From Agromyces aureus (lineage in GTDB: Bacteria; Actinomycetota; Actinomycetes; Actinomycetales; Microbacteriaceae), in NCBI RefSeq assembly GCF_001660485.1, contig NZ_CP013979.1:3100001-3164000 (forward strand): DNA of 64,000 nt, given 5' to 3'. The notes beneath the pieces are model-generated. The model searched no databases, was not told where the DNA came from, and was given only the letters and a program-made list of their open reading frames with translations. This document shows positions 4,745 through 36,399 of the stretch, one piece after another. The position numbers and the translations under genes are program-made. The stretch's first letter is position 1, and every line of letters starts with the position of its first letter.

Positions 4745-4780
4745 CGCCCTCAGCGGGGCGATGGCTGACGGATGCCGCGG

Positions 4781-5482
4781 CTAGGCGCTCGCGCGCTGCA
4801 GCGGGACCTCTTCGTCGTCGATGAACGCGTCGGCGTCCTCGTCGAGGCCGATGAGGCCGTAGTCCCAACCCTTGCGGCGATAGACGACGCTCGGACGACC
4901 GGTCTCGGAGTCGACGAAGAGATAGAAGTCGTGACCGACCAACTCCATGAACGACAGTGCATCGTCGACGGTCATGGGCGACTTGGCGAACACCTTCCGG
5001 CGGATGACGACCGGGCAGTACACGTCGTCGTCCTCGGGGACGGACGCGGCCTCGTCGATGACGGGGATGGATCCGGTGCGCACCTGCTCGAGGACCTCGG
5101 GTCGGGCGGCCTGCACGCCCACCTCTGCGAAGCCGAGGTCGGTCGCCTCTCGGATCGAGGTCGGCCGATGCTGGCCGCGATGGACCTTTCGGCGGTCTTT
5201 GGCCCGGCGGATGCGTTCGAGCAATCGGCCGAGCGCGACGTCGAACGCCGCGTACTTGTCGGAGCCGTCGGCCTCGGCCCGGACGACGGGCCCCTTGCCG
5301 ACGAGAGTGAGCTCGACGCGGTCGGGCCCGGTGTTGCCGTTCTTCTCGTGGTGACGCGAAAGCTTCACGTCGAGCTGAATGGCTCGGTCGGCGAGGTGGG
5401 AGATCTTCTCCGACTTCTCGGTCGCGTAGGTACGGAAGCGATCCGTGATCCCCAGGTTTCGTCCGACGATGTTCAGTTCCAT
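4781..5482 (-). CDS. hpf: Long-form ribosome hibernation promoting factor
   Basis: A 233-residue long HPF, which dimerises 70S ribosomes into inactive 100S particles in stationary phase. Residues 1 to about 105 are the RaiA/YfiA-like ribosome-binding domain, starting [20 protein letters not shown] and including [15 protein letters not shown] charged linker ([16 protein letters not shown]) leads to the C-terminal dimerisation domain (about 175-225), [21 protein letters not shown] through [15 protein letters not shown]. The ATG at 5482 is preceded by GGAGG at a normal distance. The frame is open upstream but without homology. It has its own promoter and terminator. Confidence 0.95.
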
Positions 5483-5546
5483 GACGACCTCCATCCACCG
5501 ACGTGTCACCCGGTTCTGAAGGGTGGTAGTCCACGCCTGTCCTGCC

Positions 5547-5575
5547 ACCGTAGTCTGCCCACCATCGGATGTCAC
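5547..5575 (-). promoter_or_regulatory. hpf promoter
   Basis: On the minus strand, GTGACA (5570-5575) is 17 bases from TACGGT (5547-5552). This is a 5/6 match to the -35 consensus with ideal spacing. Start of transcription is expected near 5540, giving a leader of about 58 bases. The promoter sits in the 100 bases between comF and hpf. Confidence 0.5.
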
Positions 5576-5582
5576 CATCTGT

Positions 5583-6329
5583 TCACCGAGAGGATCCTGA
5601 ACGTCGCCCGATGCGCAACGGCGTCTCGGCGAGCACGGCCACGGCCTCGACGGTCGCGCCGGCGGCCACCAGCGCACGGCGTGCCTCGAGGAGGGTCGAG
5701 CCGGTCGTCAGCACGTCGTCGACGAGCAGGAACCGGTGGCCGTCGAGGCGCTTGCGGGCCACGAGCCCGCCCGCGGCGTTGGCGGCTCGGGCGGCGGCGC
5801 CGAGTCCGGCCTGGTCGTCGCGCTCGCGCGCGAGCCGCAGCACCGGGGTCGACCGGATGCCGCATGCGGCGAGCAGCACAGGCACCGGCCGGTATCCGCG
5901 AGCGCGGAGCGCGGCCGGCGTCGACGGCACCGTCGCCACGAGCAGGCCGCCCCCGCTCGCGCCTCCGAGCGTCCGCGGCACGCCCACGAGGGCGGTGCCG
6001 ATCGACGCGGCGAGCGCCGGGGCGAGCACGCGCGCGACATCCGCTCGCCCTCCGTCTTTGAAGGCGCCGATGAGGGACGCCACGACGTCGCCGTATTCGA
6101 GCCCCGCATGAACCCTGAGTTCCGCCCGCGACACCTCGACAGGCCGTGCGGCCGCCGCGTCCCGGCACCCGGCGCAGACCGCGACGTCGGGCTGTCCGCA
6201 CCCGGCGCACGAGACCGGCATCACCGTCGCGAGGGCGGCAGCGAGGGCTGCCGCGAGCGCGGCGCCCACCGACCCGTCAGCAGGCGCGGCGCGCTCGAGG
6301 CGGGTCGAACGGGCGAGAGGGGACGACAT
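5583..6329 (-). CDS. comF: ComF-family phosphoribosyltransferase-like protein
   Basis: A 248-residue ComF/GntX-type protein. A cysteine cluster CAGCGQPDVAVCAGC (about residues 40-54) forms the usual N-terminal zinc-finger-like module. The C-terminal half has the type I phosphoribosyltransferase fold, with the PRPP-loop motif FLLVDDVLTTGSTLLEA near residue 200. The family is tied to DNA uptake in some bacteria, but its chemistry is unresolved and a competence role here is only a possibility. The ATG at 6329 is the first plausible start after the lpqB stop (97 bases upstream); a start nearer MPVSCAGC is also possible. Its place between lpqB and hpf is as in M. tuberculosis Rv3242c. Confidence 0.85.
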   Translation of the reverse strand: MSSPLARSTRLERAAPADGSVGAALAAALAAALATVMPVSCAGCGQPDVAVCAGCRDAAAARPVEVSRAELRVHAGLEYGDVVASLIGAFKDGGRADVARVLAPALAASIGTALVGVPRTLGGASGGGLLVATVPSTPAALRARGYRPVPVLLAACGIRSTPVLRLARERDDQAGLGAAARAANAAGGLVARKRLDGHRFLLVDDVLTTGSTLLEARRALVAAGATVEAVAVLAETPLRIGRRSGSSR

Positions 6330-6426
6330 GCACCGAGCGTGAGGGTCGCGCCGCGACATCCGCCCCCGAGAACTCGGCAGGCACGACGGATGCCGCGTGC
6401 GCATGCCCGGGGAGGAGCGGTGCCGG

Positions 6427-8115
6427 TCAGCCGGGGAGCTGCGACGCGACGAACCGGATGCCGTTCGCCCGCTCCTGCCAGCCGACGCCGCTCTGCACGA
6501 CGAGCGACCCGGCGTCGGTGAGCACGCGCACGTCGCGGATGCTGTTGCCGGCGTCGAGGAGGCGCCCGGCCGACGGGCCGTCGCGGGTCGACGCGAAGCC
6601 GCCGAGGTCCTGCGTGACGATGCGGGTGGCGTCGCCCGCGACGCGCGTGAGCGACACGACCGAGCGGCCGTCGACCCACGCGACGTCGAGCGGCAGACCG
6701 TCGACCTCGGCGAGCCGCAGCACGTCGGTGCCGAGCGCGGTGGGCAGGCCGTCGGCATCGCGGCTGATGGCCGCGACGAGGAAGTACGTTCGTGGGCCGT
6801 CGCCGAGGAGCGCGAGCAGGCGCGTGCCGTCGCGGGAGACCTCGATCGCGGCGATCGACGTGCCCGACCAGGGCACCGTGAGACGCCCGTTGCTCTGGCC
6901 GTCGGCCGAGAACCATGCGAGGTCGGCGGGCGCCCCGGCCGGCACCGACCAGACGATGCCGGCGCGGTCGAACGCCGGGGTGATCAGGCCCGCCCTCGGG
7001 TCGAGCGCCACCGGGTCGGCGTCGGCCGTGAGGACCGAAACGCCCGACGCGTCGAGGATCGCCGCGGATTCGGCATCCGGCCCGATCGCCGCGCCCGTCG
7101 CGCCGGACTGCGCGACCTGCTCCGAGATGCCCGGGATCGGCGTGATGCCGTCGCCCGAGGTCGAGAGGTAGCCGAGCGATTCGCCGTCGAACACGACCGG
7201 GCGAGGGTCGACGCGGGGGTCGCGCACCGCCGGATTCGCCGGGACGCCGGCCTCGGATTCGACGCCGTTGAGGATCAGGGCGACCTCGCCCACGTTGCGC
7301 ACACTGCCGACCAGGCTCTGGTTGAGCTGCAACTGCATGCGCTGGGCTGCGGCGGTGTCGTCGAACGCGGCTCCGGTGAGCGAGACCTCGGCGACGCGCC
7401 CCGACACCGGCACCGCGGCCGGCGAGAGCTCGGTGCCCTCGGGGAACGCCGAGGTCACGCCGGGGGCCAGCCACGCGGCGGGCCCGGCGAGCAGCGCCTG
7501 CACGACGCTCGTCTGCGCGGAGTCCCGGCCGGCGAACCATCGGGAGTCGGGCACCAGGAAGCGGTAGGCGGGATCGAAGAAGTACAGGGTGTACTCCCGG
7601 AACACCTGCGTGAAGTTCGCCTGGTCGATCACGATGCCCGCAGGCGCGCCCGCGATGCGCCACTGCCCGTCGATCTGCTCGAAGTCGTACTCGAGCGGGA
7701 GCGGCGCCGCAGAGGTGGCGACCTCGTACTGGCCGTTGTCGCGCAGCGACGCCGCCGGCGTCGCAGTGAGGCGGATCTGCGCGTCGGAGACCTCTTCGAA
7801 CTCGCGATCGGCGAGCACGTCGATCGTGGCGTTCTCGTCGGCCTGCCACTGCTCCTTGAACGCCGGCGTGAGGAACTCGTACGCCGCCTGGTAGTTGTTC
7901 CGCGGACTGAGCGCCGCCGTGAGGAAGCCGTCGAGGATCTGCTGCTGGGTGCCGTCGACGATCGGAGGATCGACCAGGATGTCGAGGTCGAGCGACGAGG
8001 CGTCGGACGGCGCCGGGTCGCCCTGCTGAACGTTGCCCGAGCTCGGGATGGACACGCACCCGCTCAGCAGGAGCGACAGCATGGCGACGGATGCCGCGAG
8101 CAGCCCCCTACGCAT
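6427..8115 (-). CDS. lpqB: Lipoprotein LpqB (MtrAB-associated)
   Basis: A 562-residue lipoprotein expected on the outer face of the membrane. The signal peptide is MRRGLLAASVAMLSLLLSGC, with the lipobox cysteine at residue 20. The first half includes a GerMN-type region (NFTQVFREYTLYFFDP to VPVSGRVAEVSLTGAAFDD). The second half is rich in short beta repeats with GVSVLTADADP- and DLAWFSADGQSNGRL-like motifs, suggesting a propeller. In mycobacteria LpqB binds the sensor domain of MtrB and modulates MtrA signalling (family knowledge). Its start overlaps the end of mtrB by 8 bases, indicating translational coupling. Confidence 0.95.
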   Translation of the reverse strand: MRRGLLAASVAMLSLLLSGCVSIPSSGNVQQGDPAPSDASSLDLDILVDPPIVDGTQQQILDGFLTAALSPRNNYQAAYEFLTPAFKEQWQADENATIDVLADREFEEVSDAQIRLTATPAASLRDNGQYEVATSAAPLPLEYDFEQIDGQWRIAGAPAGIVIDQANFTQVFREYTLYFFDPAYRFLVPDSRWFAGRDSAQTSVVQALLAGPAAWLAPGVTSAFPEGTELSPAAVPVSGRVAEVSLTGAAFDDTAAAQRMQLQLNQSLVGSVRNVGEVALILNGVESEAGVPANPAVRDPRVDPRPVVFDGESLGYLSTSGDGITPIPGISEQVAQSGATGAAIGPDAESAAILDASGVSVLTADADPVALDPRAGLITPAFDRAGIVWSVPAGAPADLAWFSADGQSNGRLTVPWSGTSIAAIEVSRDGTRLLALLGDGPRTYFLVAAISRDADGLPTALGTDVLRLAEVDGLPLDVAWVDGRSVVSLTRVAGDATRIVTQDLGGFASTRDGPSAGRLLDAGNSIRDVRVLTDAGSLVVQSGVGWQERANGIRFVASQLPG

Positions 8116-9802
8116 CGTGCACCTCGCGATCGTCGTCGGGGAGGATGGCCCCCACGGAGGCCGTCGGCGGCGGTCCGGCCGCCTCGGGGTCGCCCGGCTC
8201 GAGCGGCAGCGGGGAGACCGCGGCAGCGTTCGGATCGAGGCCGGCCCGCGCGGACCGCGGCAGCGTCAACCGGAAGACGCTCCCCTGGCCCGGGTGGGAC
8301 CACACGTCGAGGTGCCCGCCGTGCGCGACGGCGTCTTCGAGCGAGATCGCGAGACCGAGCCCGGTGCCGCCGATGGTGCGCACCCGGCTCGGGTCGGCCC
8401 GCCAGAACCGGTCGAACACGCGCTCGGCCGCCTCGGTGGTCATGCCGAGCCCGTAGTCGCGCACCGAGAGCGCGATCGCGCTCGCGTTGCTGTCGACCGC
8501 GACGACGATGGGGCGCCCCTCGCCGTGCTCGATCGCATTGCCGAGCAGGTTGGTGACGATCCGGCGCACCCGGCGCGGATCGACCTCGGCGTCGAGGTGG
8601 CCGCCGGGCGCCTCGAGCCGGAGCTCGGATCCGCGTTCGCGGGCGAGACCGTGCATCTCCTCGATGACGTCGCCGGCAAGGTGCACGAGGTTGGTCGGCT
8701 CGGTCGCGAGCGTCACCGATCCGGCGTCGTACCGGCTGATCTCGAGCAGGTCGCCGAGCAGGCGCTCGAACCGCTCGGTCTGGGTGTGCAGCAGTTCGAC
8801 GGTTCGGGCCGTGGGGCCCGCGAAGTCCTCGCGCTGGCCGTAGAGCACATCGCCGGCGAGCCGGATGGTCGTGAGCGGCGTACGGAGCTCGTGCGAGACA
8901 TCCGACACGAAGCGCTGCTGCATGACCGAGAGCTCGGCGAGCTCGCGAATGCGCGCCTGGAGGCTGTCGGCCATGCCGTTGAAGGATGCCGCGAGCGACG
9001 CCAGTTCGTCTTCGCCGCGCGCGGGGATACGCACGCCGAGATCGCCGGCGGCGAGGCGGCGGCTCGTGGACGCGGTCGTGCGGATCGGCTCGATCACGCC
9101 GCGCACGACGACGAGCGTGATGGCGCTGAGCAGGGCGATGAGCGCGATCGCGCCGACCGTGCCGGTCACCTGCATGAAGGCGAGGGTCTGCTGGGCCTCG
9201 GAGAGGTTGTAGCCGAGGTAGAGCTCGTACCGCCCTGCGCCGGCGGGCACCTGGAGGCCGCTGCCGACCACGATGCCGGGGTTGGTGCCGCCCGAGGAGT
9301 TCTCGAGTGCGACCGACTGCCAGTACTGGTTCTCGGGGTGCTCCTGCACCTGCGCGCGGAGCGCGGGCGAGATCACGCCCGCGAGGTCGGGGCTGAGCCG
9401 ATCGGGCGGGGCGTTGTTGCTCGTCGGCTGATCGGGGGCCCGGAAGATCGCGATGTCGTTGGTGCCGGCGATGCTCGTGACGGTGTCGATGGTCGCCTTC
9501 ATGAGCAGCTGCAGCGAGCCGCGGTCGGCCGCGTCGGAGGAGTCGAGGATCAGCTGCGCGGCGGTGGTGGCGTTGTTCGAGACCTCGAGCACGCGCGAAC
9601 GCTGGTCCTGGAACAGGTTCGACGCGACGCTGAACGAGATGTAGAGGCCGATGACGAGGATCGCGAGGGTCGACAGCCCGATCGTGATGAAGACCGTGCG
9701 CACCTGGAGCGAACGCCGCCACGTGGAGGCGATCGTCGTCCGCAGGCGCCGCGGAAGTCCGCGCCACGACGCCGTGGTGCGGACTTCCGCGGCGGCGGTC
9801 AT
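8108..9802 (-). CDS. mtrB: Sensor histidine kinase MtrB
   Basis: A membrane sensor kinase partnering MtrA, controlling cell-wall metabolism, division and osmotic response in actinobacteria. The 564-residue product has a first membrane helix (VFITIGLSTLAILVIGLYISF, about 40-60) and an extracytoplasmic domain of about 140 residues. A second helix (GTVGAIALIALLSAITLVVV) is followed by a HAMP domain, the HisKA motif FVSDVSHELRTPLTTIRLAGD and the ATPase domain (N box GNAIEHGEG, G boxes DYGLGM and GGTGLGLAI). The C-terminus is a Pro-rich tail. The ATG at 9802 lies 5 bases past the mtrA stop. The open frame extends upstream over mtrA without homology. Confidence 0.96.
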   Translation of the reverse strand: MTAAAEVRTTASWRGLPRRLRTTIASTWRRSLQVRTVFITIGLSTLAILVIGLYISFSVASNLFQDQRSRVLEVSNNATTAAQLILDSSDAADRGSLQLLMKATIDTVTSIAGTNDIAIFRAPDQPTSNNAPPDRLSPDLAGVISPALRAQVQEHPENQYWQSVALENSSGGTNPGIVVGSGLQVPAGAGRYELYLGYNLSEAQQTLAFMQVTGTVGAIALIALLSAITLVVVRGVIEPIRTTASTSRRLAAGDLGVRIPARGEDELASLAASFNGMADSLQARIRELAELSVMQQRFVSDVSHELRTPLTTIRLAGDVLYGQREDFAGPTARTVELLHTQTERFERLLGDLLEISRYDAGSVTLATEPTNLVHLAGDVIEEMHGLARERGSELRLEAPGGHLDAEVDPRRVRRIVTNLLGNAIEHGEGRPIVVAVDSNASAIALSVRDYGLGMTTEAAERVFDRFWRADPSRVRTIGGTGLGLAISLEDAVAHGGHLDVWSHPGQGSVFRLTLPRSARAGLDPNAAAVSPLPLEPGDPEAAGPPPTASVGAILPDDDREVHDA

Positions 9803-9807
9803 TCCCG

Positions 9808-10488
9808 TCAGGTGGTCGCGCCGGCGCGGTAGCCGACGCCGCGAACGGTCATCACGATGCGCGGGTTGTCGGGGTCGTGCTCGACCTTGGCGCGCAGGCG
9901 CTGCACGTGCACGTTCACGAGGCGCGTGTCGGCCTTGTAGTGGTAGCCCCACACCTGCTCGAGCAGCATCTCGCGCGTGAACACCTGCTGCGGCTTCGAC
10001 GCGAGCGTGAGGAGCAGGTCGAACTCGAGGGGCGTGAGCGAGATGCGCTCGTCGCCGCGGCGCACCTCGTGGCCGGCCGCGTCGATCGTGAGGTCGCCGA
10101 CCGCATACGTCTCGACGGCCGACTCGGGCGTCGGGCGGAGTCGGGTACGGATGCGCGCGACGAGCTCCTTCGGGTTGAAGGGCTTGACCATGTAGTCGTC
10201 GGCGCCCGACTCGAGGCCCTTCACGACGTCGGCGGTGTCGGTCTTGGCCGTCAGCATGATGATCGGCGTGCCGGACTCGGCCCGGATGCGCGCGCAGACC
10301 TCGATGCCGTCGAGGCCCGGCAGCATGAGGTCGAGCAGCACCAGATCGGGTCGGCTCTCGCGGAACGCCGCGAGCGCGCTCGAACCGTCGCCGCAGAAGA
10401 CGGGATCGAAGCCCTCGGTGCGCAGCACGATGCCGATCATCTCGGCGAGGGCCGTGTCGTCGTCGACGACGAGTACGCGTGAAGTCAT
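9808..10488 (-). CDS. mtrA: Response regulator MtrA
   Basis: An OmpR/PhoB-type transcription factor of 226 residues. The receiver domain occupies residues 4-120: acidic pocket VVDDD, phosphoacceptor Asp53 in VLLDLMLPG, conserved Thr in MLTAKT and Lys in VKPF. The winged-helix DNA-binding domain follows (ISLTPLEFDLLLTLASKP, TREMLLEQVWGY, VHVQRLRAKVE, RGVGYRAG). It is the first gene of the mtrA-mtrB-lpqB operon. The ATG at 10488 begins the MTSRVLVVDDD block and has AGGA upstream. Confidence 0.97.
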   Translation of the reverse strand: MTSRVLVVDDDTALAEMIGIVLRTEGFDPVFCGDGSSALAAFRESRPDLVLLDLMLPGLDGIEVCARIRAESGTPIIMLTAKTDTADVVKGLESGADDYMVKPFNPKELVARIRTRLRPTPESAVETYAVGDLTIDAAGHEVRRGDERISLTPLEFDLLLTLASKPQQVFTREMLLEQVWGYHYKADTRLVNVHVQRLRAKVEHDPDNPRIVMTVRGVGYRAGATT

Positions 10489-10670
10489 CGGTTCATTCCT
10501 GTTGCAGCGCCCGGGGCGGGGTTCTCGCGCCAGGCCGGATGGACGGTGTGACCAGCGTAGTCGTACGGCCCGACAAGGGGGGCGGATGCCGCGGGCGGGT
10601 GTGGAGCGTGCCGGTGGGCCGCTCCCCGATATGCGAGCATGGGAATCCGCAGCGGAAGGAGCACGACGAG

Positions 10671-11993
10671 GTGGCCGAACACGACTGGCGAGCGCCCGGA
10701 GCGCCCGAGCCGCAGCCCGACGCCTCCGCACCATCCGTGCCGAGCACTCCCGGCGCCTCCGACGCGCCAGCTGCGACCGCGCCCGCCGCCCCGGTGCCGC
10801 CGCTGCCGCCGCTGTACGGCGCGCCCGCTGCGCCTCCGGTGTACGGCGCGCCGCCCGCATACGGCGCTCCGACCGCACCGCCGCCATACGGCGCACCCCA
10901 GTACGGCGCGCCGCAGTACGGCGCCCCCGCCGGCAGTCAGGCCTGGACCGCCCCGCCGAAGCCGGGCCTCCTGCCGTTGCGCCCGTTGGGCTTCGGCACG
11001 CTGCTGTGGGCCCCGTTCCGCACGCTGCGCCGAAATCCGGCGGCGACCTTCGGAAGCGGTCTGCTCGTGCAGCTCGCCGCGGGCATCCTCGCGGCCGCCG
11101 TGGCGGTCCCCGTGTTCATCTGGTTCTTCGGTCGCCTCGACTCGGCCGGCCCGGCGGAGATCGACGAACTGCTGCCCGGTTCGATCGCGGCCCTGGTGCT
11201 CACCATGCTCTTCGCCGTGGGGGTCTCGGTCGTCGCCAGTGCGTTCCTGCAGGGCGTCATGATCGTCGAGGTCGCCTCGGGCACGCTCGGCGAGAAGCTC
11301 TCGCTCGGGGCGTTGTGGCGCCGCACGCTGCCGCGCATCGGTGCGCTCGTCGTCTGGACCCTGCTCGTCACCCTCGCACTGCTCGTCGTGCTCGCCGTGC
11401 TGGTGGGCATCATCGTGCTCGGCGCGGTGACCTCGCCGGTCGGCCTGGGCGTCAGCATCGCGGTCGTCGTGCTGCTCTCGCTCGGCCTCGTCGTGCTCGG
11501 CTGGTGGATCGGCGTGCGGCTCGCCCTCGTGCCGAGCATCATCGTGCTGGAGCACGCGGGCATCGCGACGGCGATGCGACGTTCGTGGCGGCTCACGATC
11601 GGCTACTTCTGGCGCACGCTCGGGGTGCTCCTGCTCGTGAGCGTCATCCTCAACGTCGCCTCGCAGGTCGTGGTGCAACCCGTCACGCTGCTCGGCGGGC
11701 TGCTCCCGGCGATCATCGACCCGACGAACACGGGCTCGGCGGTCACGATCGCGATCGTGCTCGGCGTCGTGTCCACGGTGCTCTCGATCATCATCACCGC
11801 GATCACGACCGTCGTGCAGGCTGCCCTGGTCGGCGTCGTCTACATCGACCTCCGCATGCGCACGGAGGGCCTCGACCTCGAGCTGGCACGGCACGTCGAG
11901 CTCCGCGACGCAGGGCAGCCCGTGTCGGACCCGTGGGTCGCACCCGATCAGGGCGCCCAGCATCCGGTGCCGTCGGGCGGCGCTCCCGCATGA
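10671..11993 (+). CDS. Multi-pass membrane protein with YGAP-repeat N-terminus
   Basis: A 440-residue protein. Residues 1-85 are Pro/Ala-rich and contain at least six YGAP units (PLYGAP, PVYGAP, AYGAP, PYGAP, QYGAP twice), a low-complexity tail probably cytoplasmic. From about residue 100 there are six or more hydrophobic segments (LLVQLAAGILAAAVAVPVFIW, ALVVWTLLVTLALLVVLAVLV, GVSIAVVVLLSLGLVVLGWW and others), with IIVLEHAGIATAMRRSWRLTIG, resembling the membrane domain of glycerophosphodiester phosphodiesterase-like proteins. The GTG at 10671 has GGAAGGAG upstream and begins the conserved product. It overlaps the next gene by ATGA and probably opens the DUF4129-DUF4350-moxR-DUF58 operon. Function unknown. 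Confidence 0.8.
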   Translation: MAEHDWRAPGAPEPQPDASAPSVPSTPGASDAPAATAPAAPVPPLPPLYGAPAAPPVYGAPPAYGAPTAPPPYGAPQYGAPQYGAPAGSQAWTAPPKPGLLPLRPLGFGTLLWAPFRTLRRNPAATFGSGLLVQLAAGILAAAVAVPVFIWFFGRLDSAGPAEIDELLPGSIAALVLTMLFAVGVSVVASAFLQGVMIVEVASGTLGEKLSLGALWRRTLPRIGALVVWTLLVTLALLVVLAVLVGIIVLGAVTSPVGLGVSIAVVVLLSLGLVVLGWWIGVRLALVPSIIVLEHAGIATAMRRSWRLTIGYFWRTLGVLLLVSVILNVASQVVVQPVTLLGGLLPAIIDPTNTGSAVTIAIVLGVVSTVLSIIITAITTVVQAALVGVVYIDLRMRTEGLDLELARHVELRDAGQPVSDPWVAPDQGAQHPVPSGGAPA

Positions 11994-12691
11994 TCGCAGC
12001 CGCGGCGGTCCGCGCGCTCGGCTTCGGCGCGGACCCGCTGGATCCCGACGCCGACGAGGCCCGCCGTTGGCTGCTCGACGAGCTGTCGAAGCCCAGGTAC
12101 CGTGCCGCCGAGCCCAACGCGCTCGACGTGTTCGCGCAGGCGGTGCGCGACTGGTTCACAGACCTGCTGAACGGGGCCGGCGCGGTGCCCGGTGAGGTCG
12201 TGGCGCTGCTCGTCGTGCTCCTCGTGATCGTGCTGGTCGTGGTCGGACTGCTCGTCTTCGGGGTGCCGCGCCTCCGCCGCCGTCGGGCGTCGAGTTCGGC
12301 AGCGGCCTTCGAGGGCGATCTGCGCGACGCGGGCACGATCCGCCGCGCCGCCGAGGCCGCGGCGCGCGACCGGGACTGGCCGCTCGCGATCGAGGAGCGC
12401 TTCCGCGCGATCGTGCGCGACCTCGTCGAACGCGAACTCGTGCAGGTGCATCCCGGCACGACCGCCAGAGGCGTCGCGGATGCCGCGGCTCGGCCGTTCC
12501 CCGACGCCCGGGCGCGCCTGGCGGATGCGGCCGACGCGTTCGACGACGTGCGCTACCTCGGCGCCGCGGGCGATGCGCCCACCTACGAGCGCCTGACGAC
12601 GCTGGATCGAGAGCTGCAGGCGATGCGTCCGGTTCGCGAGGGCGCGTCGACGACGGATGCCGCCGACGGCCGTTTCGAGGCCGTGCGATGA
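11990..12691 (+). CDS. DUF4129 membrane protein
   Basis: A 233-residue protein with one clear transmembrane helix (VVALLVVLLVIVLVVVGLLVFGV, about residues 72-94), flanked on the cytoplasmic side by Arg-rich sequence. The C-terminal DUF4129 domain (about 110-205) includes DWPLAIEERFRAIVRDLVERELV and the PGTTARGVADAAA motif. DUF4129 proteins accompany MoxR ATPases and DUF58 proteins across actinobacteria. It is coupled to both neighbours by ATGA overlaps. In codons 163-165 (GCG GAT GCC) it carries one copy of the CGGATGCC word. Confidence 0.85.
   Translation: MIAAAAVRALGFGADPLDPDADEARRWLLDELSKPRYRAAEPNALDVFAQAVRDWFTDLLNGAGAVPGEVVALLVVLLVIVLVVVGLLVFGVPRLRRRRASSSAAAFEGDLRDAGTIRRAAEAAARDRDWPLAIEERFRAIVRDLVERELVQVHPGTTARGVADAAARPFPDARARLADAADAFDDVRYLGAAGDAPTYERLTTLDRELQAMRPVREGASTTDAADGRFEAVR

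Positions 12692-14057: not shown

Positions 14058-14061
<4 letters not shown>
12688..14061 (+). CDS. DUF4350 membrane protein
   Basis: A 457-residue protein. A first membrane helix (TWLVLAGVLVVGVLVLFAI, about residues 48-66) precedes an exported DUF4350 region with SPGARGSGALVEVLRAHDVEV and LLFDEFATLDDDALDAL, a flavodoxin/GATase-like fold. A second helix (WVSPVLVLALVVTVIAGVW, about 305-325) leads to a cytoplasmic tail with KLYAR-like RARLYARSAQRTHALDQMRVATIRRLA. It corresponds to M. tuberculosis Rv3691. Overlaps of 4 bases with both neighbours show one operon. Role in the MoxR system unknown. Confidence 0.85.
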
Positions 14062-15044
<983 letters not shown>

Positions 15045-18534: not shown

Positions 18535-19383
18535 ATGGTCGACGTGCCCAACGCCCGCACCGCTGCCGCCCGACACGACGACGAGGGCGTGGTCATCGGC
18601 GAGGCCGTCGCGCTCGACCTGCGGCCGGCATCCGCCCTGATCCGCGGCGGCGGAACCATCATCGACGTGCTCGTCTCGATCGTGCTCCTCGTCGGCATGG
18701 CCCTCGTCGCGACCGGCGCGGGCCTCACGGTCGACGGGGCCGCGTTCCGCGCCATCGCGATCGGCGGGGTCGTGGTCGTCATCATCGTCGTGCCGACGGC
18801 CGTCGAGACCGCCTCGCACGGGCGCTCGCTCGGCAAGCTCGCGCTCGGCCTCCGCGTCGTGCGCGACGACGGCGGGGCGATCGGGTTCCGCCATGCGTTC
18901 ATCCGCGCCCTCACCGGGGTGCTCGAGATCTACCTCACGTTCGGCGGCCTCGCGGTGCTCATCGGCTTCCTGAACCCGTCGTCCAAGCGCCTCGGCGACC
19001 TGCTCGCCGGAACCCACGCCCAGGTCGAGCGCGTGCCCGCCGTGCGTTCGAACCCGTTCGGCGTGCCGCCCGAGCTCGTCGGGTGGGCCTCGATCGCCGA
19101 CGTCGCGCGCCTGCCCGACCCGCTCGCCCGCCGCGTCGCCTCGTACTTCGAGAACGTCGCCCAGCTCGCTCCGGCGAGCCGCACCCGCCTGGCCACCTCG
19201 CTCGCCGCCGAGGTCGCACCCTACGTCGCCCCGGTCCCGGATGCCGCACCCGAGCCGTTCCTCGCGGGCGTGGTCGCGCTCCGGCGCGCGCGCGACGCCC
19301 GCGCGCTCGAACTCGAGCAGGCTCGACTGCATGCGCTCGAACCCGTGCTCGCCGCGACGGCGACCGGCTTCCCGCGGCGCTGA
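18535..19383 (+). CDS. RDD-family membrane protein
   Basis: A 282-residue protein. The RDD domain covers about residues 20-165: GGTIIDVLVSIVLLVGMALVA, then VVVIIVVPTAVETASHGRSLGKLALGLRVV, and LNPSSKRLGDLLAGTHAQVE. The C-terminal 110 residues are soluble and helical (RVASYFENVAQLAPASRTRLATSLAAEV, RRARDARALELEQARLHALEP). The RDD/SpoIIM-like divergent pair next to MoxR genes is conserved in actinobacteria (Rv3694c-Rv3695). Substrate or partner unknown. Confidence 0.88.
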   Translation: MVDVPNARTAAARHDDEGVVIGEAVALDLRPASALIRGGGTIIDVLVSIVLLVGMALVATGAGLTVDGAAFRAIAIGGVVVVIIVVPTAVETASHGRSLGKLALGLRVVRDDGGAIGFRHAFIRALTGVLEIYLTFGGLAVLIGFLNPSSKRLGDLLAGTHAQVERVPAVRSNPFGVPPELVGWASIADVARLPDPLARRVASYFENVAQLAPASRTRLATSLAAEVAPYVAPVPDAAPEPFLAGVVALRRARDARALELEQARLHALEPVLAATATGFPRR

Positions 19384-19437: not shown

Positions 19438-19487
19438 CGAGCGGGGCGGATGCCGCGAGCAGCCGCCCGCGGCATCCGCCCCGCTCG
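19438..19487. terminator. Bidirectional 20-bp-stem terminator built from the GGATGCCGC word
   Basis: A perfect 20-bp inverted repeat (arms 19438-19457 and 19468-19487, 10-base loop) lies between the convergent RDD and ahcY genes, 17 bases from the ahcY stop. Each arm contains GCGGATGCCGC or its complement. No T-run follows on either side. Confidence 0.75.
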
Positions 19488-19504: not shown

Positions 19505-20983
<1,479 letters not shown>

Positions 20984-28502: not shown

Positions 28503-28552
28503 ATCGTCTCCCACCCAGTTGTACCGACCACCCAGAGGGTGTGTCTGGAACA

Positions 28553-29664: not shown

Positions 29665-29666
29665 GT

Positions 29667-29698: not shown

Positions 29699-29700
29699 CC

Positions 29701-29841: not shown

Positions 29842-29913
29842 GGCAGAAAGTCTCGCTCTTGTCATATCCTGCCGACAGTGGCAGGGTTGACAACGACCGA
29901 TTACTTTCTGCCA
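29841..29913. promoter_or_regulatory. Nested inverted repeats in the divergent control region of the GlxA-type regulator
   Basis: Three concentric inverted repeats share nearly one centre. They are TGGCAGAAAG (29841-29850) with CTTTCTGCCA (29904-29913), TTGTCA (29859-29864) with TGACAA (29888-29893), and CCTGCC (29868-29873) with GGCAGG (29880-29885). This is a likely operator, plausibly bound by the adjacent regulator itself. Confidence 0.55.
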
Positions 29914-29924
29914 AGGGATGTCCC

Positions 29925-30911
29925 ATGCTCCAGTCCGTCGCCTGCATCGCCCTCGACCAGATGGCGCCCTTCGAGTTCGGCGTCGTCTGCGAGGTGTTCG
30001 GCATCGATCGCTCCGCGCAGGGCGGGCCGACGTTCGACTTCCACGTCGTCGCCGCGGACCCCGGCCCCATCTCCACCAAGCTCGGCTTCGACGTCGTGGT
30101 GCACGAGAACCTCGACTTCGCCTACCGGGCCGACCTCGTGGCGGTGCCGGCCTCGCTCATCGGCAGCGAACCCGACGAGCGCGTGCTCGACGTCATCCGC
30201 AAGGCCGTCGAACGCGGCGCCTGGGTGCTCTCGGTCTGCTCCGGCGCGTTCACCCTGGGCCACGCCGGCGTGCTCGCCGGTCGTCGGGCGACCACGCACT
30301 GGATGTACACCGACCTCATGGCCGAGACCTTCCCCGACACGATCGTCGACCCCGACGTGCTCTTCGTCCAGGACGAGAAGGTCGTGACCGGCGCGGGCAC
30401 CGCCGCAGGCATCGACGCCGCACTGCACATCGTGCGCACCGAGCTCGGCGCCGCCGCCGCGAACATCGTCGCGCGACGCATGGTCGTGCCGCCGCAGCGC
30501 GACGGCGGCCAGTCGCAGTTCATCCAGACCCCCGTGCCCGAGTGCCGCACCGACTCGTTCGCCACGGTCACCGCCTGGATGCTCGAGCACCTCGATGAGG
30601 ACCTCACGGTCGATCTGCTCGCCCGCAAGGCGCTGATGTCGCCGCGGACGTTCGCACGCCGCTTCCGCGCCGAGACGGGCACGACCCCGAACGCGTGGCT
30701 CAACCGCCAGCGCCTGCTGCGGGCGCAGCAGCTCCTCGAGGAGACCTCGCTGACCCTCGAGGAGGTCGCCCGCGAGACCGGGTTCGGCGCGGCCGCCGTG
30801 ATGCGCCACCACTTCGTCAAGGTGCTGCAGACCACCCCGACCGCCTACCGACGCCTGTTCGGCACGCGCGCCGAGTCGACCGACGACGTGCTCGTCGCGC
30901 GCACGGCCTGA
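29925..30911 (+). CDS. GlxA-type transcriptional regulator (DJ-1/PfpI + AraC HTH)
   Basis: A 328-residue regulator. Residues 1 to about 190 form a class I glutamine-amidotransferase-like/DJ-1 domain with nucleophile-elbow motif WVLSVCSGAFTLGHAG. The C-terminal 110 residues are a two-HTH AraC/XylS domain (LTVDLLARKALMSPRTFARRFRAETGTTPNAWL and LTLEEVARETGFGAAAVMRHHF). The ATG at 29925 has AAGGGA at normal spacing; earlier in-frame codons fall in the palindromes. Ligand unknown. It is divergent from the small membrane protein. Confidence 0.88.
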   Translation: MLQSVACIALDQMAPFEFGVVCEVFGIDRSAQGGPTFDFHVVAADPGPISTKLGFDVVVHENLDFAYRADLVAVPASLIGSEPDERVLDVIRKAVERGAWVLSVCSGAFTLGHAGVLAGRRATTHWMYTDLMAETFPDTIVDPDVLFVQDEKVVTGAGTAAGIDAALHIVRTELGAAAANIVARRMVVPPQRDGGQSQFIQTPVPECRTDSFATVTAWMLEHLDEDLTVDLLARKALMSPRTFARRFRAETGTTPNAWLNRQRLLRAQQLLEETSLTLEEVARETGFGAAAVMRHHFVKVLQTTPTAYRRLFGTRAESTDDVLVARTA

Positions 30912-30972
30912 TCGGCACGAGCTGCGCCCCGCCGATCGCGCCGTCGAGCAGCTCGGCCCGGCCCAGCCCGCC

Positions 30973-32232
30973 TCAGCGCCCGGTCGTCGCGATCCAGGCG
31001 ATGCCGTCGCCCGTCACCGTGAGGTGCCGTTCGTCGGGGGTCGCGTAGAGCGAGCCGCCACGGGCGACGGATGCCGCGCCCGAGGCGCCCGCGACCACGA
31101 CATCGCCGCCCTCGGCGACCACGATCGCCGGGCCGTCGAGCGGAATCCGTGCCGTCGCGGCATCCGCCCCCCCGACCGCTGCGCCATCGACCCGGTAGAG
31201 CACGAAGTCGGGCACGTCGGGCCGGAACACCTCGACGCCGACGCCGAGCCGCTCGGGAGCGAGCAGCGGCGGCGCGATGGGCGTGAAGTCGAGCACGTCG
31301 AGTAGCTCGTCGACGTCGATGTGCTTGGGCGTGAGCCCGCCGCGCAGCACGTTGTCGCTCGCGGCCATGAGCTCGATGCCGAGCCCCTCGAGGTAGGCGT
31401 GGATGTTGCCGGCCGCGAGGTACAGCGACTCGCCCCGCACGAGGCGCACGCGGTTCAGCAGCAGCGAGATGACGATGCCGGGGTCTCCCGGGTAGGCCTC
31501 GGCGAGCGCGCCGACCGTCTCGAACGAGAGCGCGTAGGCGGATTCGAGGGCGATGGCGGATGCCGCGAGGGCCGTCACGCGTTCGACCACCCATGCGGCC
31601 TCGCCGGTGTCGCCGCCGCGCCCGTCGCGGAGCAGCCACTCGACGGTGTCGCGGAGCGGCTGCGCCGACTCGAGACGCTCGGCGAGCAGGTCGAGCGCAC
31701 CGGGCTGCGACTCACCGGCGGAGCCGGCGGCATCCGCTTCGCGAAGCACCCGCAGCACACCGGCCACCTCGTCGAGCGGGCGGAAGCCCGAGAGCGCGTC
31801 GAAGGTGTCGCTCACGGCCACGATGAGCTCCGGCTTGTGGAACTCGTCCTTGTAGTTGCGGTCGTAGGCCGTGAGCTCGACGCCCTCGGCCTCCTCGCGC
31901 GCGAAGCCCGCACGCGCCTGCTCGGGCGTCGGGTGGGCTTGCAGCGACAACGGCTCGGCGGCGGCGAGCACCTTCAGCAGGAACGGCAGCCGTGCGCCGC
32001 GCGCCGCGAGGTCGGGTCCGAGGGCGGTCTCGGGGTCGGCCGCGATCCACTCGGCGAGGTCGCCGTACCCGAGTTCCCCTGGATCGGTGACGCGTGCGGG
32101 CGATCCGGCGTGGGCGCCCAGCCAGAGCTCGGCCTCCGGCGCACCCGACGCCGGGACTCCGCGGAATCCGGCGATCGCCGTCGTCGAGCCCCACGCGTAG
32201 TCGCGCGGGGTATTGCCGATCGCCACAAACAT
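30973..32232 (-). CDS. manA: Mannose-6-phosphate isomerase, class I
   Basis: Interconverts fructose 6-phosphate and mannose 6-phosphate, the entry to GDP-mannose. The 419-residue type I enzyme has YAWGSTTAIAGF at the N-terminus, metal-binding LSLQAHPTPEQA and DEFHKPELIVA, the active-site segment GNIHAYLEGLGIELMAASDNVLRGGLTPKHID, and a C-terminal cupin-like domain. With the manB-type mutase it supplies the substrate for the two Gmd homologues if a GDP-mannose pyrophosphorylase is encoded elsewhere. Confidence 0.94.
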   Translation of the reverse strand: MFVAIGNTPRDYAWGSTTAIAGFRGVPASGAPEAELWLGAHAGSPARVTDPGELGYGDLAEWIAADPETALGPDLAARGARLPFLLKVLAAAEPLSLQAHPTPEQARAGFAREEAEGVELTAYDRNYKDEFHKPELIVAVSDTFDALSGFRPLDEVAGVLRVLREADAAGSAGESQPGALDLLAERLESAQPLRDTVEWLLRDGRGGDTGEAAWVVERVTALAASAIALESAYALSFETVGALAEAYPGDPGIVISLLLNRVRLVRGESLYLAAGNIHAYLEGLGIELMAASDNVLRGGLTPKHIDVDELLDVLDFTPIAPPLLAPERLGVGVEVFRPDVPDFVLYRVDGAAVGGADAATARIPLDGPAIVVAEGGDVVVAGASGAASVARGGSLYATPDERHLTVTGDGIAWIATTGR

Positions 32233-32263
32233 CCCGGAGTGCCCCTTCGTCGGATTTGGTTCC

Positions 32264-32307
32264 AAACTACCAACGGCCGTGGTGGCATCCGATCGCGGAC
32301 GTAGGCT
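32264..32307. promoter_or_regulatory. Divergent -10 candidates for manA and the acyl-CoA dehydrogenase
   Basis: TAGTTT on the minus strand (32264-32269) faces manA. TAGGCT on the plus strand (32302-32307) faces the dehydrogenase, whose ATG also has GGAG five bases upstream. No good -35 is visible for either. Confidence 0.3.
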
Positions 32308-32337
32308 CGGGGCATCCGACGATGCATTGGAGCAGTC

Positions 32338-33516
32338 ATGACCTTCGAGCCGCTCGCGAGCGACTTCTACGCGTACGAATCCCTCCTCACCGAGCGCGAG
32401 CAGCAGGCGATCGCCGAACTGCGCGCGTGGCTCGAGGCCGAGGTCAAGCCCATCGTCGGCGACTACTGGGAGCGCGCCGAGTTCCCCATGCAGATCGTGA
32501 AGCCGCTCGCCGAGCACGGCGTGCTCTCGTTCGGCTGGGACGAGACGAAGCCGTTCGAGAACTCGGCCGTCTTCCGCGGATTCGTGGCCATGGAGCTCGC
32601 CCGCGTCGACGCCTCCGTCGCGACCTTCGTCGGGGTGCAGAACGGCCTCGCCACCGGAAGCATCAGCGTGTGCGGCTCGAAGGAGCAGCGCGACGAGTGG
32701 ATCCCGAAGCTCGCGAGCGGCGAGGTGCTCGGCGCCTTCGGACTGACCGAGCCGCTCTCGGGCTCCGACTCGGCGCAGGGCCTGCGCACCACTGCGAAGC
32801 GCGACGGCGACACCTGGGTGCTGAACGGCGCGAAGCGGTGGATCGGCAACGCGACGTTCAGCGACATCACGATCATCTGGGCCAAGGACGTCGACGACAA
32901 CCAGGTCAAGGGCTTCATCGTGCCGACCTCGACGCCCGGCTACACGGCCACGAAGATCGAGGGCAAGATCAGCCTCCGTGCCGTGCAGAACGCCGACATC
33001 ACGCTCGAGGACGTGGTCGTGCCCGAGTCGAACCGGCTCCAGAACGCGAACTCGTTCCGCGACACCGCTCAGGTGCTGCGGCTCACCCGCGCCGAGGTCG
33101 CCTGGGCCGCCGTCGGCACGGCGATGGGCGCCTACGAGGCCGCCGTGAAGTACGCCGGCGAGCGCGTGCAGTTCGGCAAGACCATCGGCTCGCACCAGCT
33201 CATCCAGGACCTCCTCGTGAAGTGCCTCGGCAACATCACCGCGTCGCTCGGCATGGTCGTGCGCGTCTCCGAGATGCTCGACCGCGGCGAGCAGCGCGAC
33301 GAGCACTCCGCCCTCGCCAAGGCGTACACGACCTCCCGCATGCGCGAGACCGTCGCCTGGGCGCGCGAGGCCTGCGGCGGCAACGGCATCACGCTCGAGT
33401 ACGACGTGGCCCGCTTCTTCGCCGACGCCGAGGCGCTGTACTCCTACGAGGGCACGCGCGAGATGAACACCCTCATCGTGGGCCGCAAGATCACGGGCAG
33501 CGCCGCGTTCGTGTGA
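32338..33516 (+). CDS. Acyl-CoA dehydrogenase (glutaryl-CoA dehydrogenase-like)
   Basis: A 392-residue FAD enzyme that oxidises acyl-CoA thioesters. Family landmarks are FGLTEPLSGSDSAQGLRTTA (flavin/substrate loop), WVLNGAKRWIGNA, RVQFGKTIGSHQLIQDLL and AREACGGNGI. YSYEGTREMNTLIVGRKITG carries the catalytic Glu in the position used by glutaryl- and short-chain enzymes. The overall pattern is closest to GcdH-like proteins, but decarboxylating activity cannot be assigned. It is single, with a strong terminator behind it. Confidence 0.88.
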   Translation: MTFEPLASDFYAYESLLTEREQQAIAELRAWLEAEVKPIVGDYWERAEFPMQIVKPLAEHGVLSFGWDETKPFENSAVFRGFVAMELARVDASVATFVGVQNGLATGSISVCGSKEQRDEWIPKLASGEVLGAFGLTEPLSGSDSAQGLRTTAKRDGDTWVLNGAKRWIGNATFSDITIIWAKDVDDNQVKGFIVPTSTPGYTATKIEGKISLRAVQNADITLEDVVVPESNRLQNANSFRDTAQVLRLTRAEVAWAAVGTAMGAYEAAVKYAGERVQFGKTIGSHQLIQDLLVKCLGNITASLGMVVRVSEMLDRGEQRDEHSALAKAYTTSRMRETVAWAREACGGNGITLEYDVARFFADAEALYSYEGTREMNTLIVGRKITGSAAFV

Positions 33517-33535
33517 CCTTCACCACGACGGCGAG

Positions 33536-33571
33536 CGGATGCCGCGGGCGAGCGTTCGCCCGCGGCATCCG
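33536..33571 (+). terminator. Acyl-CoA dehydrogenase terminator with GGATGCCGC arms
   Basis: A perfect 16-bp stem, CGGATGCCGCGGGCGA (33536-33551) with TCGCCCGCGGCATCCG (33556-33571), is closed by a 4-base loop 19 bases after the stop. Both arms contain the over-represented word. Confidence 0.75.
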
Positions 33572-33658
33572 TCGTCTGCGGCCGCGCCACCTGCCGCGGG
33601 TCGGTCCGAGCGCGTCGGCGACGGTGCCGGCGACCTTCCGCGCGATAGCCTTGACCCC

Positions 33659-35104
33659 ATGAATCCCGCACGCCGCCCAGCCCTCGCGGGCGCGTACGCG
33701 ACGTTCGTGCTGTTCACGGCGTTCGCCGGGCAGTTCTGGCGAAACCTCCTCGGCTGGTGGGGGTTCGGCGCGGCCGTCGCGATCGTCGTGGTCGGCGGCA
33801 TCCTGCTCATCGCGCACGTGCGACCGCGGTGGAAGTGGCGCCGCACGCCGAAGTCGACCCTCGCGTTCCTGCTGCTCGCCGTGCTCTCGCTGGCGTGGTC
33901 GTTCTACCCGGGGGCGACGGCGCTCGGACTCGCGATCCTGTTCGTGACGACGTTCGCCGCCGTGACGCTCGTGCTCTGCCTGCCGTGGTCGCGCGTCGTG
34001 GCGTCGCTCGCGTCGGCGATCAAGTGGATCCTGGCGCTCTCGATCGCGTTCGAACTGTGGGTCGCGGTGTTCGTGCGCGAACCCCTGCTGCCGAACTTCC
34101 CCGACTTCGAGGTCACGGGCGAGAAACTGCCCCTGGCGTTCTACTGGTCGCGCGGCCTGCTGCTGCACGGCGGACCCATCGAGGGCATCGTCGCGAGCCG
34201 CAACCTGCTCGGCATGATCGCGCTGCTCGGACTCATCGTGTTCGGCTGCCTGCTCGCGGCCGGCAGCATGCGACGGGCGCCCGGCATCTCGTGGCTCGTC
34301 GTCGCGGGCCTCGTGTTCGCGCTCACGCGGTCGTCGACGATGATCCTCGTCGCCGCGCTCGTGGCGGTCGTGCTCGTGTTCGCGCTCTGGACGCGCCGGG
34401 TCGGACCCCGCCACCGACGAAAGGTCTACTGGGCCGCAGCCGGCGTGGTCGCGGCATCCGTGACCCTGCTGCTCGTCTCGTGGAACCTGCTGCTGCAGCT
34501 CTTCGGCAAGGGCGAAGACCTCACGGGCCGCACCGACATCTGGGCGAGCGTGATCGACCTCGCACAGCAGCGACCGGTTGCGGGTTGGGGGTACGTCGGG
34601 TACTGGGTGCCGTGGGTCGAGCCCTTCAAAGACCTCGCGGTGCGCAAGGGCGTGACCTACCTGCAGGCGCACAACGCCTGGCTCGACGTGTGGATGCAGC
34701 TCGGCGTGCTCGGGCTCATCGCATTCGTCGCCATCGTCATCGGCGCCCTCTGGCGCTCCTGGTTCCTCGCGGTCGATCAGCCCAAGGATGCCGCGGGCCG
34801 CCCGCTCCCCTACTCCGCGGCCTCGCTGCTGCCGCTGCTCGTGCTCTTCGCGCTGCTCGGACAGAGCCTCGCCGAGAGCCGCCTGCTCATCGAGATCGGC
34901 TGGCTCCTGCTCATCGCGATCGCGTGGGCCACGAAACGCCGGCAGTGGACGAACGACCCGCTGCCCGCCGAACCCCGACCGGCGCGCTCGCACGCCGTGG
35001 CGCTGCCCGAGCCGCCGGCATCGCGCGGCGCCCCGGCGGCGCAGGGACCGCCCGACGCCCCGGCGCCGCCCGCACCGCCCAGCGCCTCGGCGCCGCCGGC
35101 ATGA
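33659..35104 (+). CDS. O-antigen ligase/polymerase-like membrane protein 1
   Basis: A 481-residue protein with about ten or more membrane helices. The Wzy_C-like region includes GPIEGIVASRNLLGMIALLGLIVFG, GEDLTGRTDIWASVIDLAQQRPVAGWGYVGYW and AHNAWLDVWMQLGVLG, with the conserved Arg and His of WaaL/Wzy proteins (SRN, GRTDIW, AHN). The last 50 residues are a Pro/Ala-rich tail. Ligation of finished glycan or polymerisation is likely; which one is unclear. It overlaps the next, paralogous gene by ATGA. Confidence 0.85.
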   Translation: MNPARRPALAGAYATFVLFTAFAGQFWRNLLGWWGFGAAVAIVVVGGILLIAHVRPRWKWRRTPKSTLAFLLLAVLSLAWSFYPGATALGLAILFVTTFAAVTLVLCLPWSRVVASLASAIKWILALSIAFELWVAVFVREPLLPNFPDFEVTGEKLPLAFYWSRGLLLHGGPIEGIVASRNLLGMIALLGLIVFGCLLAAGSMRRAPGISWLVVAGLVFALTRSSTMILVAALVAVVLVFALWTRRVGPRHRRKVYWAAAGVVAASVTLLLVSWNLLLQLFGKGEDLTGRTDIWASVIDLAQQRPVAGWGYVGYWVPWVEPFKDLAVRKGVTYLQAHNAWLDVWMQLGVLGLIAFVAIVIGALWRSWFLAVDQPKDAAGRPLPYSAASLLPLLVLFALLGQSLAESRLLIEIGWLLLIAIAWATKRRQWTNDPLPAEPRPARSHAVALPEPPASRGAPAAQGPPDAPAPPAPPSASAPPA

Positions 35105-36399
35105 CCGCGACGCCCTCGGTCATGAAGGCGCTGCGCGAGTTCGCCGGGTCGGCCCGCTTCGCCCAGGCGCTCTCGCTCACCGCGATCGGCGTCGGACTCG
35201 CGACGCACCTCATCCGCAGCCTCATCGGGTGGCCCGGCCTGCTCGCCATGATCGCTGGCCTCCTGGTGCTGTGCGGCGTCTCGCTCGTCGCGAGGTGGCG
35301 CGCGGTCGAGTGGTACGGCATCCTGCCCCTGACGATCCTCGTGTTCGTCGGCTGGTGCGCGGCATCCGTGCTCTGGAGCACGACCCCCGCCACGAGCGCG
35401 CTGCGGGTGACCTACCTCGTCGGATTCGCCTTCATCGGCGTCTACGTGGCGCTCATGCGCGACACCATCCAGATCGTCCGCGCGTTCGGCGAGGTCACGA
35501 GGGCGCTGCTCGGCGTCTCGCTGGCGCTCGAGGTGTTCTCCGGCATCCTCCTCGACCTGCCGATCTCGTTCCTCGGCATCAACGGCGACATCACGAACCT
35601 CGGACCCATCCAGGGCATCTTCGGTTCGAGGAACCTGCTCGGCTTCATCGCCGTCGTGGCGCTGCTGACCTTCATTGTCGAGTGGCGCACCCACCTCGTC
35701 ACGCGGACCGTGGCGATCGCGTCGCTCACGCTCGCCTCGGTGTGCGTCGTGTTCTCGGGGTCCCCGACCGCGTGGATCGCCCTCGCCGTCGCCCTCGTCG
35801 CCCTCGCCGCGATCTACGGCCTCCGGCGCGCCGCGCCCGCCACGAGGTGGCGCTGGCAGATCGCGTTGCTCGTGGCCGCGATCGCCGTACTCATCACGGC
35901 GTGGCTCGTTCGCATCCGGATCATCGAGCTGCTCGACGCGCGCGCGGAGTTCGACGTGCGGCTGGACCTCTGGCGCGAGGCGTCCCGATACCTGGCCCTG
36001 AACCCCCTGCAGGGCTGGGGATGGGTCGGCGCCTGGCCCGACTCGTCGCCCTACCTCTGGATCGAGGCGGCGACCGGGCGCCAGCACAGCTCGGCCCTCA
36101 GCGCCTACGTCGACGTCTACTTCCAGGTGGGCGTCATCGGGGTGCTGTTGTTCGCCGCCCTCATCGGCGTCGCACTCGTGCGCGCCTGGCTGCTCGCCAC
36201 GGGCCGCCGCAGCGTCGTCTACCTGTGGCCCGCGCTCATGCTCGTGACGATCGCCGTGACCTCGTTCGCCGAGAGCTTCGCGATCACCGAGGGCGGCTGG
36301 ATGCTGCTCGTCGTCTGCGCCGTCAAGGCGGCGCGCGACATGAGCTGGCGCGACGCGCTGGCGGCGAACCGGCCCACAGCACTCGGGCCGGGGGGCTGA
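35101..36399 (+). CDS. O-antigen ligase/polymerase-like membrane protein 2
   Basis: A 432-residue paralogue of the preceding protein. It keeps GPIQGIFGSRNLLGFIAVVALLTF, FDVRLDLWREASRYLALNPLQGWGWVGAW and SALSAYVDVYFQVGVIG, but where protein 1 has AHNAW this one has SSALSAY, so the loop histidine is replaced. Around ten membrane helices are visible. The pair may divide polymerase and ligase roles, or act together; this is inference. It still carries the GGCATCCG word (near 35362), so composition places it with the core side of the boundary. Confidence 0.85.
   Translation: MTATPSVMKALREFAGSARFAQALSLTAIGVGLATHLIRSLIGWPGLLAMIAGLLVLCGVSLVARWRAVEWYGILPLTILVFVGWCAASVLWSTTPATSALRVTYLVGFAFIGVYVALMRDTIQIVRAFGEVTRALLGVSLALEVFSGILLDLPISFLGINGDITNLGPIQGIFGSRNLLGFIAVVALLTFIVEWRTHLVTRTVAIASLTLASVCVVFSGSPTAWIALAVALVALAAIYGLRRAAPATRWRWQIALLVAAIAVLITAWLVRIRIIELLDARAEFDVRLDLWREASRYLALNPLQGWGWVGAWPDSSPYLWIEAATGRQHSSALSAYVDVYFQVGVIGVLLFAALIGVALVRAWLLATGRRSVVYLWPALMLVTIAVTSFAESFAITEGGWMLLVVCAVKAARDMSWRDALAANRPTALGPGG

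Follow-up and report, generated by a model that had tools for sequence, protein, structure and literature searches.

The window analysed here, a stretch of 64,000 nucleotides, covers positions 3100001-3164000 of the Agromyces aureus genome (one contig, NZ_CP013979.1, of 4,373,124 bases). Its most conspicuous feature is a short DNA word, read CGGATGCC on one strand and GGCATCCG on the other, which is repeated in genes and between them over the first part of the window and is scarce in the remainder, where polysaccharide-type genes are found. The following features are referred to below, with positions counted from the first letter of the window.

4769..35368, both strands (21 +, 17 -): zone with 38 copies of CGGATGCC/GGCATCCG, from the first start at 4769 to the last end at 35368; 1.04/kb over 1-36400
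12477..12484, + strand: copy of CGGATGCC read GCG GAT GCC (Ala-Asp-Ala) inside the called gene 11990-12691 (+)
14744..14751, - strand: copy of CGGATGCC read GCG GCA TCC (Ala-Ala-Ser), with the rare Ala codon GCA, inside the called gene 14058-15044 (+)
19447..19478, inverted pair: 19447-19454 on the + strand and 19471-19478 on the - strand, between convergent genes
32284..32318, - strand: two same-strand intergenic copies, 32284-32291 and 32311-32318
33536..33571, inverted pair: 33536-33543 on the + strand and 33564-33571 on the - strand, in a long GC-rich hairpin 19 bp past the gene end at 33516
36401..64000: word-poor region with reduced GC (0.65) and genes of polysaccharide type; seven CGGATGCC in 27.6 kb and two CGGATGCCGC

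Counting both strands, the window has 45 copies of CGGATGCC, compared with 6.55 +/- 2.49 in dinucleotide shuffles, and none of 100 shuffles reached 45. Positions 1-36400 contain 38 of them, matching exactly the 21 + 17 copies counted by hand in the original prediction, with chance expectations of 3.7, 4.2 and 5.3 under Markov models of order 1, 2 and 3; the expectation of about 3 given there was slightly low. Seven of the ten positions that it quoted are exact, and three (6388, 8089 and 16186) are corrected here to 6387, 8088 and 16184. Its codon readings, GCG GAT GCC near 12476 and GCG GCA TCC near 14744, hold in the gene calls. The pair at 19447-19478 lies 63 bp past the end of the gene at 19383 and 26 bp short of the gene 19505-20983 (-). 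In the region 36401-64000, the seven copies compare with an order-2 expectation of 3.3. Ten proteins of this region were scanned and eight match Pfam families, including sugar epimerases/dehydratases, glycosyltransferases and an acyltransferase. Its GC and gene content suggest that this polysaccharide region was recently acquired.

The over-representation is real and extends far beyond the window. The whole genome contains 4101 copies of CGGATGCC (0.94/kb) and 225 of the reversed word, which served as the control for counts, and in an even 400 kb sample CGGATGCC has the top order-3 z-score among 8-mers counted at least 10 times. Absence of enrichment on the rest of the chromosome, named at the outset as an outcome that would speak against the word, was thus seen neither in the even-spaced samples nor in the whole-genome count. 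Within the 400 kb sample, the bases on the 3' side of the 382 fully flanked copies are mostly G (0.76), C (0.79) and G (0.73), the seventh base of the word tolerates T (CGGATGTCGC, 50 vs 5.2 expected), and the 12-mer CGGATGCCGCGG is found 105 times against 1.0 expected. The consensus in the A. aureus genome is about RCGGATG(C/t)CGCGG. The extension originally described has to be corrected, because the true one is on the 3' side of CGGATGCC and a 5' G is unspecific (ACGGATGCCGC 71, GCGGATGCCGC 83). A second word, CGGACTCG/CGAGTCCG, is also over-represented, far more weakly (103 vs 27 expected in the 400 kb sample; 222 vs 122 in the codon-shuffled genes described below).

The effect of codon usage was evaluated in 864 kb sampled from the A. 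aureus genome, with 730 called genes (six of 736 had an odd GC profile and were left out). These genes contain 601 copies of CGGATGCC, compared with 120 +/- 8 after within-gene codon shuffling, and 147 copies of the 12-mer versus 9.2; the reversed word is found as expected (33 vs 30.5). A codon-aware model thus does not predict the count, which was the second way in which the original prediction could have failed. Tripeptides of the form [STPA]-Asp-Ala are spelled xCG GAT GCC in 219 of 931 cases, with 30 expected, and Ala-Ser contexts are spelled GCA TCC in 210 of 1046 (about 6 expected, one factor of this expectation being hand-set), GCA representing 6.4% of the Ala codons in the sampled genes. 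Called genes hold 607 of the 802 word copies of the 864 kb; their commonest coding frame is GCG GAT GCC (221 of 607), and 212 are in the frame GCG GCA TCC. The word is used in several reading frames on both gene strands, and the Asp-Ala, Ala-Ser and Gly-Ile frames dominate. This dominance could mean that the word is a by-product of biased codon or dipeptide usage or of the mutational context, but such an origin is extremely improbable in view of the shuffled count, of the Asp-Ala and Ala-Ser spellings and of a word density that is higher in intergenic (1.96/kb) than in coding DNA (0.79/kb). Conservation was analysed in three relatives with 87-90% aligned identity, using aligned pieces of at least 200 bases (55-77 kb of 124 kb), with other 8-mers serving to calibrate a codon-class model. 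Of the aligned sites in each relative, 46 of 65 (23.3 expected), 39 of 52 (14.9) and 29 of 54 (13.9) have the word intact, about 2 to 2.6 times the codon-matched expectation. Taken together, the codon-shuffle null, the codon-matched conservation and the use of several frames on both strands support selection, or else biased conversion, that acts on the DNA word and not on protein; selection of this kind had been suggested from the window.

The arrangement of the copies bears on two of the roles that the word might have. With dnaA, the first gene of the contig, as reference for the replichores, the orientation of the sampled copies is nearly even (429 of 802 one way, p = 0.052). The word could be a Chi-type recombination hotspot or a polar chromosome-processing signal (KOPS/FRS), as these are also short abundant oligomers, and it is kept across the genus. 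However, Chi and KOPS are unlike a word with a density of about 1/kb, a length of 10-12 bp and +/- pairs, and the A. aureus word is without replication strand polarity. This role, a Chi-like form of which was among the candidates first put forward, is very unlikely, and Chi/KOPS polarity was rejected as an explanation. Neighbouring copies in +/- orientation lie within 40 bp of each other in 42 cases, compared with about 7 expected in this orientation. Within 70 bp there are 57 such pairs in the 864 kb, 38 of them wholly intergenic, and 16 overlapping inverted pairs give an 18-bp palindrome. Hairpin pairs are found in 14 of 99 convergent regions (14.1 per 100), 18 of 268 co-directional (6.7) and 3 of 113 divergent ones (2.7), at a median of 19 bp past the stop codon (32 measured). 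Since two thirds of the close pairs are intergenic and mostly sit directly past stops, the word could be a piece of transcription terminators or an RNA-level signal. This is highly improbable, given that three quarters of the copies are genic and are distributed over both gene strands (256 sense, 351 antisense), and that only 57 close pairs exist among 802 copies. Regarding the hairpins themselves, those printed from behind genes in the A. aureus samples and in the window have GC-rich stems and no clear T tract by eye; terminator finders that need a T tract would probably miss them.

Counts of the word were confined to the order to which A. aureus belongs (the genomes compared carry G-numbers). 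Enrichment outside the window, which the original prediction had left to be looked for, was found in all 60 genomes of the genus that were searched, A. aureus included, with 6.3 to 25 times as many copies as of the reversed word. The word is patchy in 299 genomes from 85 genera of the family, and in the order outside this family (167 genomes, 19 families) the ratio of word to reversed word stays at or below about 3.9. Within its order, the word is limited to the family, where it also has dialects, several genera spelling it differently behind a constant core. The form CGGATGCG outnumbers CGGATGCC in G131 (2706/493), G085 (2602/795), G087 (2360/881), G108 (2214/639) and G132 (1643/491), compared with 771 and 4101 copies, respectively, in A. 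aureus. Another genome of the same genus, G006, contains 1348 CGGATGAC and 1195 CGGATGCC; elsewhere in the genus (59 genomes) CGGATGAC is found 183-547 times. De novo analysis of about 94 kb from each identified CGGATGCG as the top 8-mer in G087, and GGATGACG and CGGATGAC in G006. Using self-chosen thresholds, and without CGGATGAC, 70 genomes (68 of the family and two outgroups) were sorted into 22 C, 10 G, 19 mixed, 9 weak and 10 baseline, both outgroups falling in the baseline; G006 falls in the C class because CGGATGAC is outside that sorting. The core common to the dialects is (C)GGATG.

With one genome per species, the 22-base hairpin GACGGATGCCGCGGCATCCGTC was found in at least 115 stretches, and the genera among the 80 listed are Agromyces, Microbacterium, Cryobacterium, Salinibacterium, Compostimonas, Leifsonia, Mycetocola and Marisediminicola. 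Agromyces, Marisediminicola and Compostimonas are Microbacteriaceae according to the taxonomy, and we take the matches in Microbacterium, Cryobacterium, Salinibacterium, Leifsonia and Mycetocola to be members of the same family. Forty of the 80 listed loci were also compared with the A. aureus stretches by BLAST; the best match is Agromyces ramosus (82.6% over 4.7 kb), followed by A. subbeticus (83.2% over 2.0 kb) and Microbacterium sp. Leaf288 (77.3% over 1.6 kb). The hairpin also matches JASDDH010000002.1, titled Planococcus sp. APC 4015, which has 70% GC, six word copies in 8 kb and a single match, 211 bases long, to a locus of Agromyces bracchium, and is probably a mislabelled member of Microbacteriaceae.

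In five phages of Microbacterium, one covered as a whole genome and four as 30-kb parts (166 kb in total), the word is near chance, with 23 copies and about 19 expected. Some genomes of the family are also poor in the word or its core. The core CGGATG is depleted in G110 (2 vs 12 expected in 35 kb), and in 20 kb each of G154 (3 vs 6.8) and G094 (6 vs 11.6); AGGATG (7 vs 6.5) and TGGATG (5 vs 6.1) are not depleted in G110. In G179, of the same genus as G110, there are 44 CGGATGCC and 114 reversed words. The word was lost in G221, a species of the word-rich genus g85: it has 313 copies, whereas counts for five further g85 genomes range over 2309-3329, and its ComEC domain match is full length.

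Uptake sequences have been described for Neisseriaceae and Pasteurellaceae (PMC3630211, PMC13020248), and TerminatorNet, which deals with k-mers in terminators, reports uptake words in both families (PMC13020248). The DNA uptake sequences (DUS) of Neisseriaceae are described as short words with thousands of copies per genome, highly conserved, biased towards the core genome and absent from recently acquired genes, with inverted pairs at gene ends and family-limited dialects that have a common short core (PMC2397512, PMC3630211). Likewise, the uptake signal sequences (USS) of Pasteurellaceae recur across the whole genome and are also found in terminators (PMC13020248). The word studied here is hugely over-represented genome-wide on both strands, is kept beyond its surroundings in three relatives, is rare in DNA that was probably acquired recently (one window region and five phages of other Microbacterium hosts), forms inverted pairs behind genes in the A. 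aureus genome and has dialects within a family. USS also have a density of about 1/kb. Because over-representation, conservation, scarcity in acquired DNA, hairpin pairs and dialects match DUS/USS traits, we consider it probable that the word is an uptake or self-recognition sequence for natural transformation, the best fit among the roles first suggested for it. There are differences, however. The word belongs to Actinomycetota, which have a single membrane, has the core CGGATG and not CTG/GCCGTCTGAA, is without a known ComP-like receptor, and has few hairpin pairs in the samples from dialect genomes. USS differ in sequence (AAGTGCGGT) and taxon, and have flanking AT tracts where the word has a GC-rich 3' arm.

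Regarding a possible mechanism, we infer both an action of the word at the uptake step and the existence of a receptor. A putative DNA-binding protein of the competence machinery would prefer word-bearing DNA, and conspecific fragments with the word would be taken up and recombined more often, leading to its accumulation. The word would persist in the core genome, within coding frames that tolerate it and in hairpins behind genes, and would be missing from DNA that skipped the uptake filter, such as phages and recent islands. The dialects CGGATGCC, CGGATGCG and CGGATGAC could result from drift of the receptor preference between lineages. For the family as a whole (Agromyces, Microbacterium, Leifsonia, Cryobacterium and others), we see a slightly better than even chance that a dialect-bearing word serves self-specific natural transformation through a putative receptor, the first such case known to us in a single-membrane bacterium; this receptor could not everywhere be a PilB-driven type IVa pilus. 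To our knowledge, this would be the first uptake sequence outside Neisseriaceae and Pasteurellaceae. No description of the word was found in the literature searched, where a mention could be missed.

Alternatively, a system inside the cell that binds or modifies DNA, such as a GGATG-core methylase with a linked repair bias, could make and keep the word without any relation to uptake, as proposed by analogy with HIP1 (GCGATCGC) of cyanobacteria. HIP1 shows extreme over-representation, near absence in some genomes and alternate words in some lineages, all of which resemble the word studied here, and is methylase-linked (PMC4390886). The constant core (C)GGATG points in the same direction. It includes GGATG, the recognition site of FokI-type systems, and GGATG restriction might cause the depletion of CGGATG in G110 and its low count in G154, although AGGATG and TGGATG are not depleted in G110. 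In contrast to HIP1, a palindrome tied to orphan methylases, the word is by its own sequence asymmetric, and only the overlapping inverted pairs are palindromic. The D12 methylase family (PF02086) is found in eight of 34 genomes and in none of G000, G004, G030 and G043; Vsr (PF03852) is found in 10 of the 34, including G004 and G043 and not G000 and G030. Neither of these two families tracks the word in the 34 genomes, and both were rejected as its makers. A modification site alone would also leave the +/- hairpins behind stop codons unexplained. Overall, an intracellular origin, of which the methylation role in the original prediction is one form, is the main alternative to uptake; it seems unlikely, with a real but minor chance of being correct.

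Returning to uptake, the A. aureus genome has a comEA gene (SLBB + HHH) adjoining comEC. ComEC was identified in 156 of 159 distinct genomes of the family, the three misses being highly fragmented or incomplete, and therefore does not explain which genomes have the word. In Micrococcus luteus, also an actinobacterium, transformation needs Flp/tad pili (PMC6370729), and Tad pili are therefore a possible carrier of a receptor. In six of the 156 genomes (G006, G008, G016, G154, G180 and G264) the ComEC match is without its start and begins at model positions 15-30, and the 3' comEC parts start at nearly the same place, to within about 25 residues. Both parts were found in G006 (C1:521482-540423), G154 and G180, 16-39 kb apart. 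The gene is probably split in the other three genomes too: in G008, comEA is 10 kb upstream of the 3' part, and the stretches examined from G264 and G016 do not contain the other part. A large serine recombinase (Pfam) is beside the 3' part in G006 and G016, as are similar recombinases, read by eye only, in G154 and G180, and G006 has a phage portal protein match below the cut-off. The split comEC resembles the prophages in comK of Listeria. In Microbacteriaceae comEC looks like a recurrent integration site, and G154 and G264 may share one splitting event.

Several observations weigh against an uptake role. No report of transformation in Microbacteriaceae was found in the literature searched. 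Among the competence genes checked (ComEC and T2SS-type/PilB-type ATPases) none tracks the word: ComEC and T2SS-type (type II secretion system) ATPases are each present in 80 of 80 genomes regardless of it, and a PilB-type ATPase (E below 1e-130) is present in A. aureus and missing from the word-rich G030, G116 and G164. ComEC presence as determinant of the word and a PilB-type pilus as its general reader were both rejected. Compared with 57 in 864 kb of A. aureus, +/- pairs within 70 bp are scarce in the other genomes sampled: G004 (160 kb) has four, G087 (94 kb) and G085 (20 kb) have one each, and G006 (94 kb), G164 (34 kb) and G116 (20 kb) have none. For the dialect counts, the reversed word provides a weak baseline, so that the weak class means little. 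Finally, four of the six split-comEC genomes have little of the word (G008 does not): in word density, counted from the lowest, the three Agromyces rank 1, 2 and 25 of 58, and both g15 genomes are the lowest of six. A stratified permutation test of this link, which left out the fragmented Agromyces G010 and G020 without a ComEC match, gave p = 0.004 and is post hoc, the pattern having been spotted in three genomes beforehand; for the three found afterwards the ranks are 25 of 58, 2 of 6 and 2 of 3, and the link is a lead only.

If the uptake role is correct, this would be a third, independent case of an uptake sequence, in Actinomycetota, and DNA self-recognition would have evolved repeatedly. 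The dialects would then predict which Microbacteriaceae can exchange DNA, and a receptor could be sought, and the spread of such words by drive versus selection tested, in a new setting. If instead the word is intracellular, it would be a second puzzle of the HIP1 class, one whose evolutionary record is clear. In both cases, the transformation of laboratory Agromyces or Microbacterium may benefit when the donor DNA is given the word.

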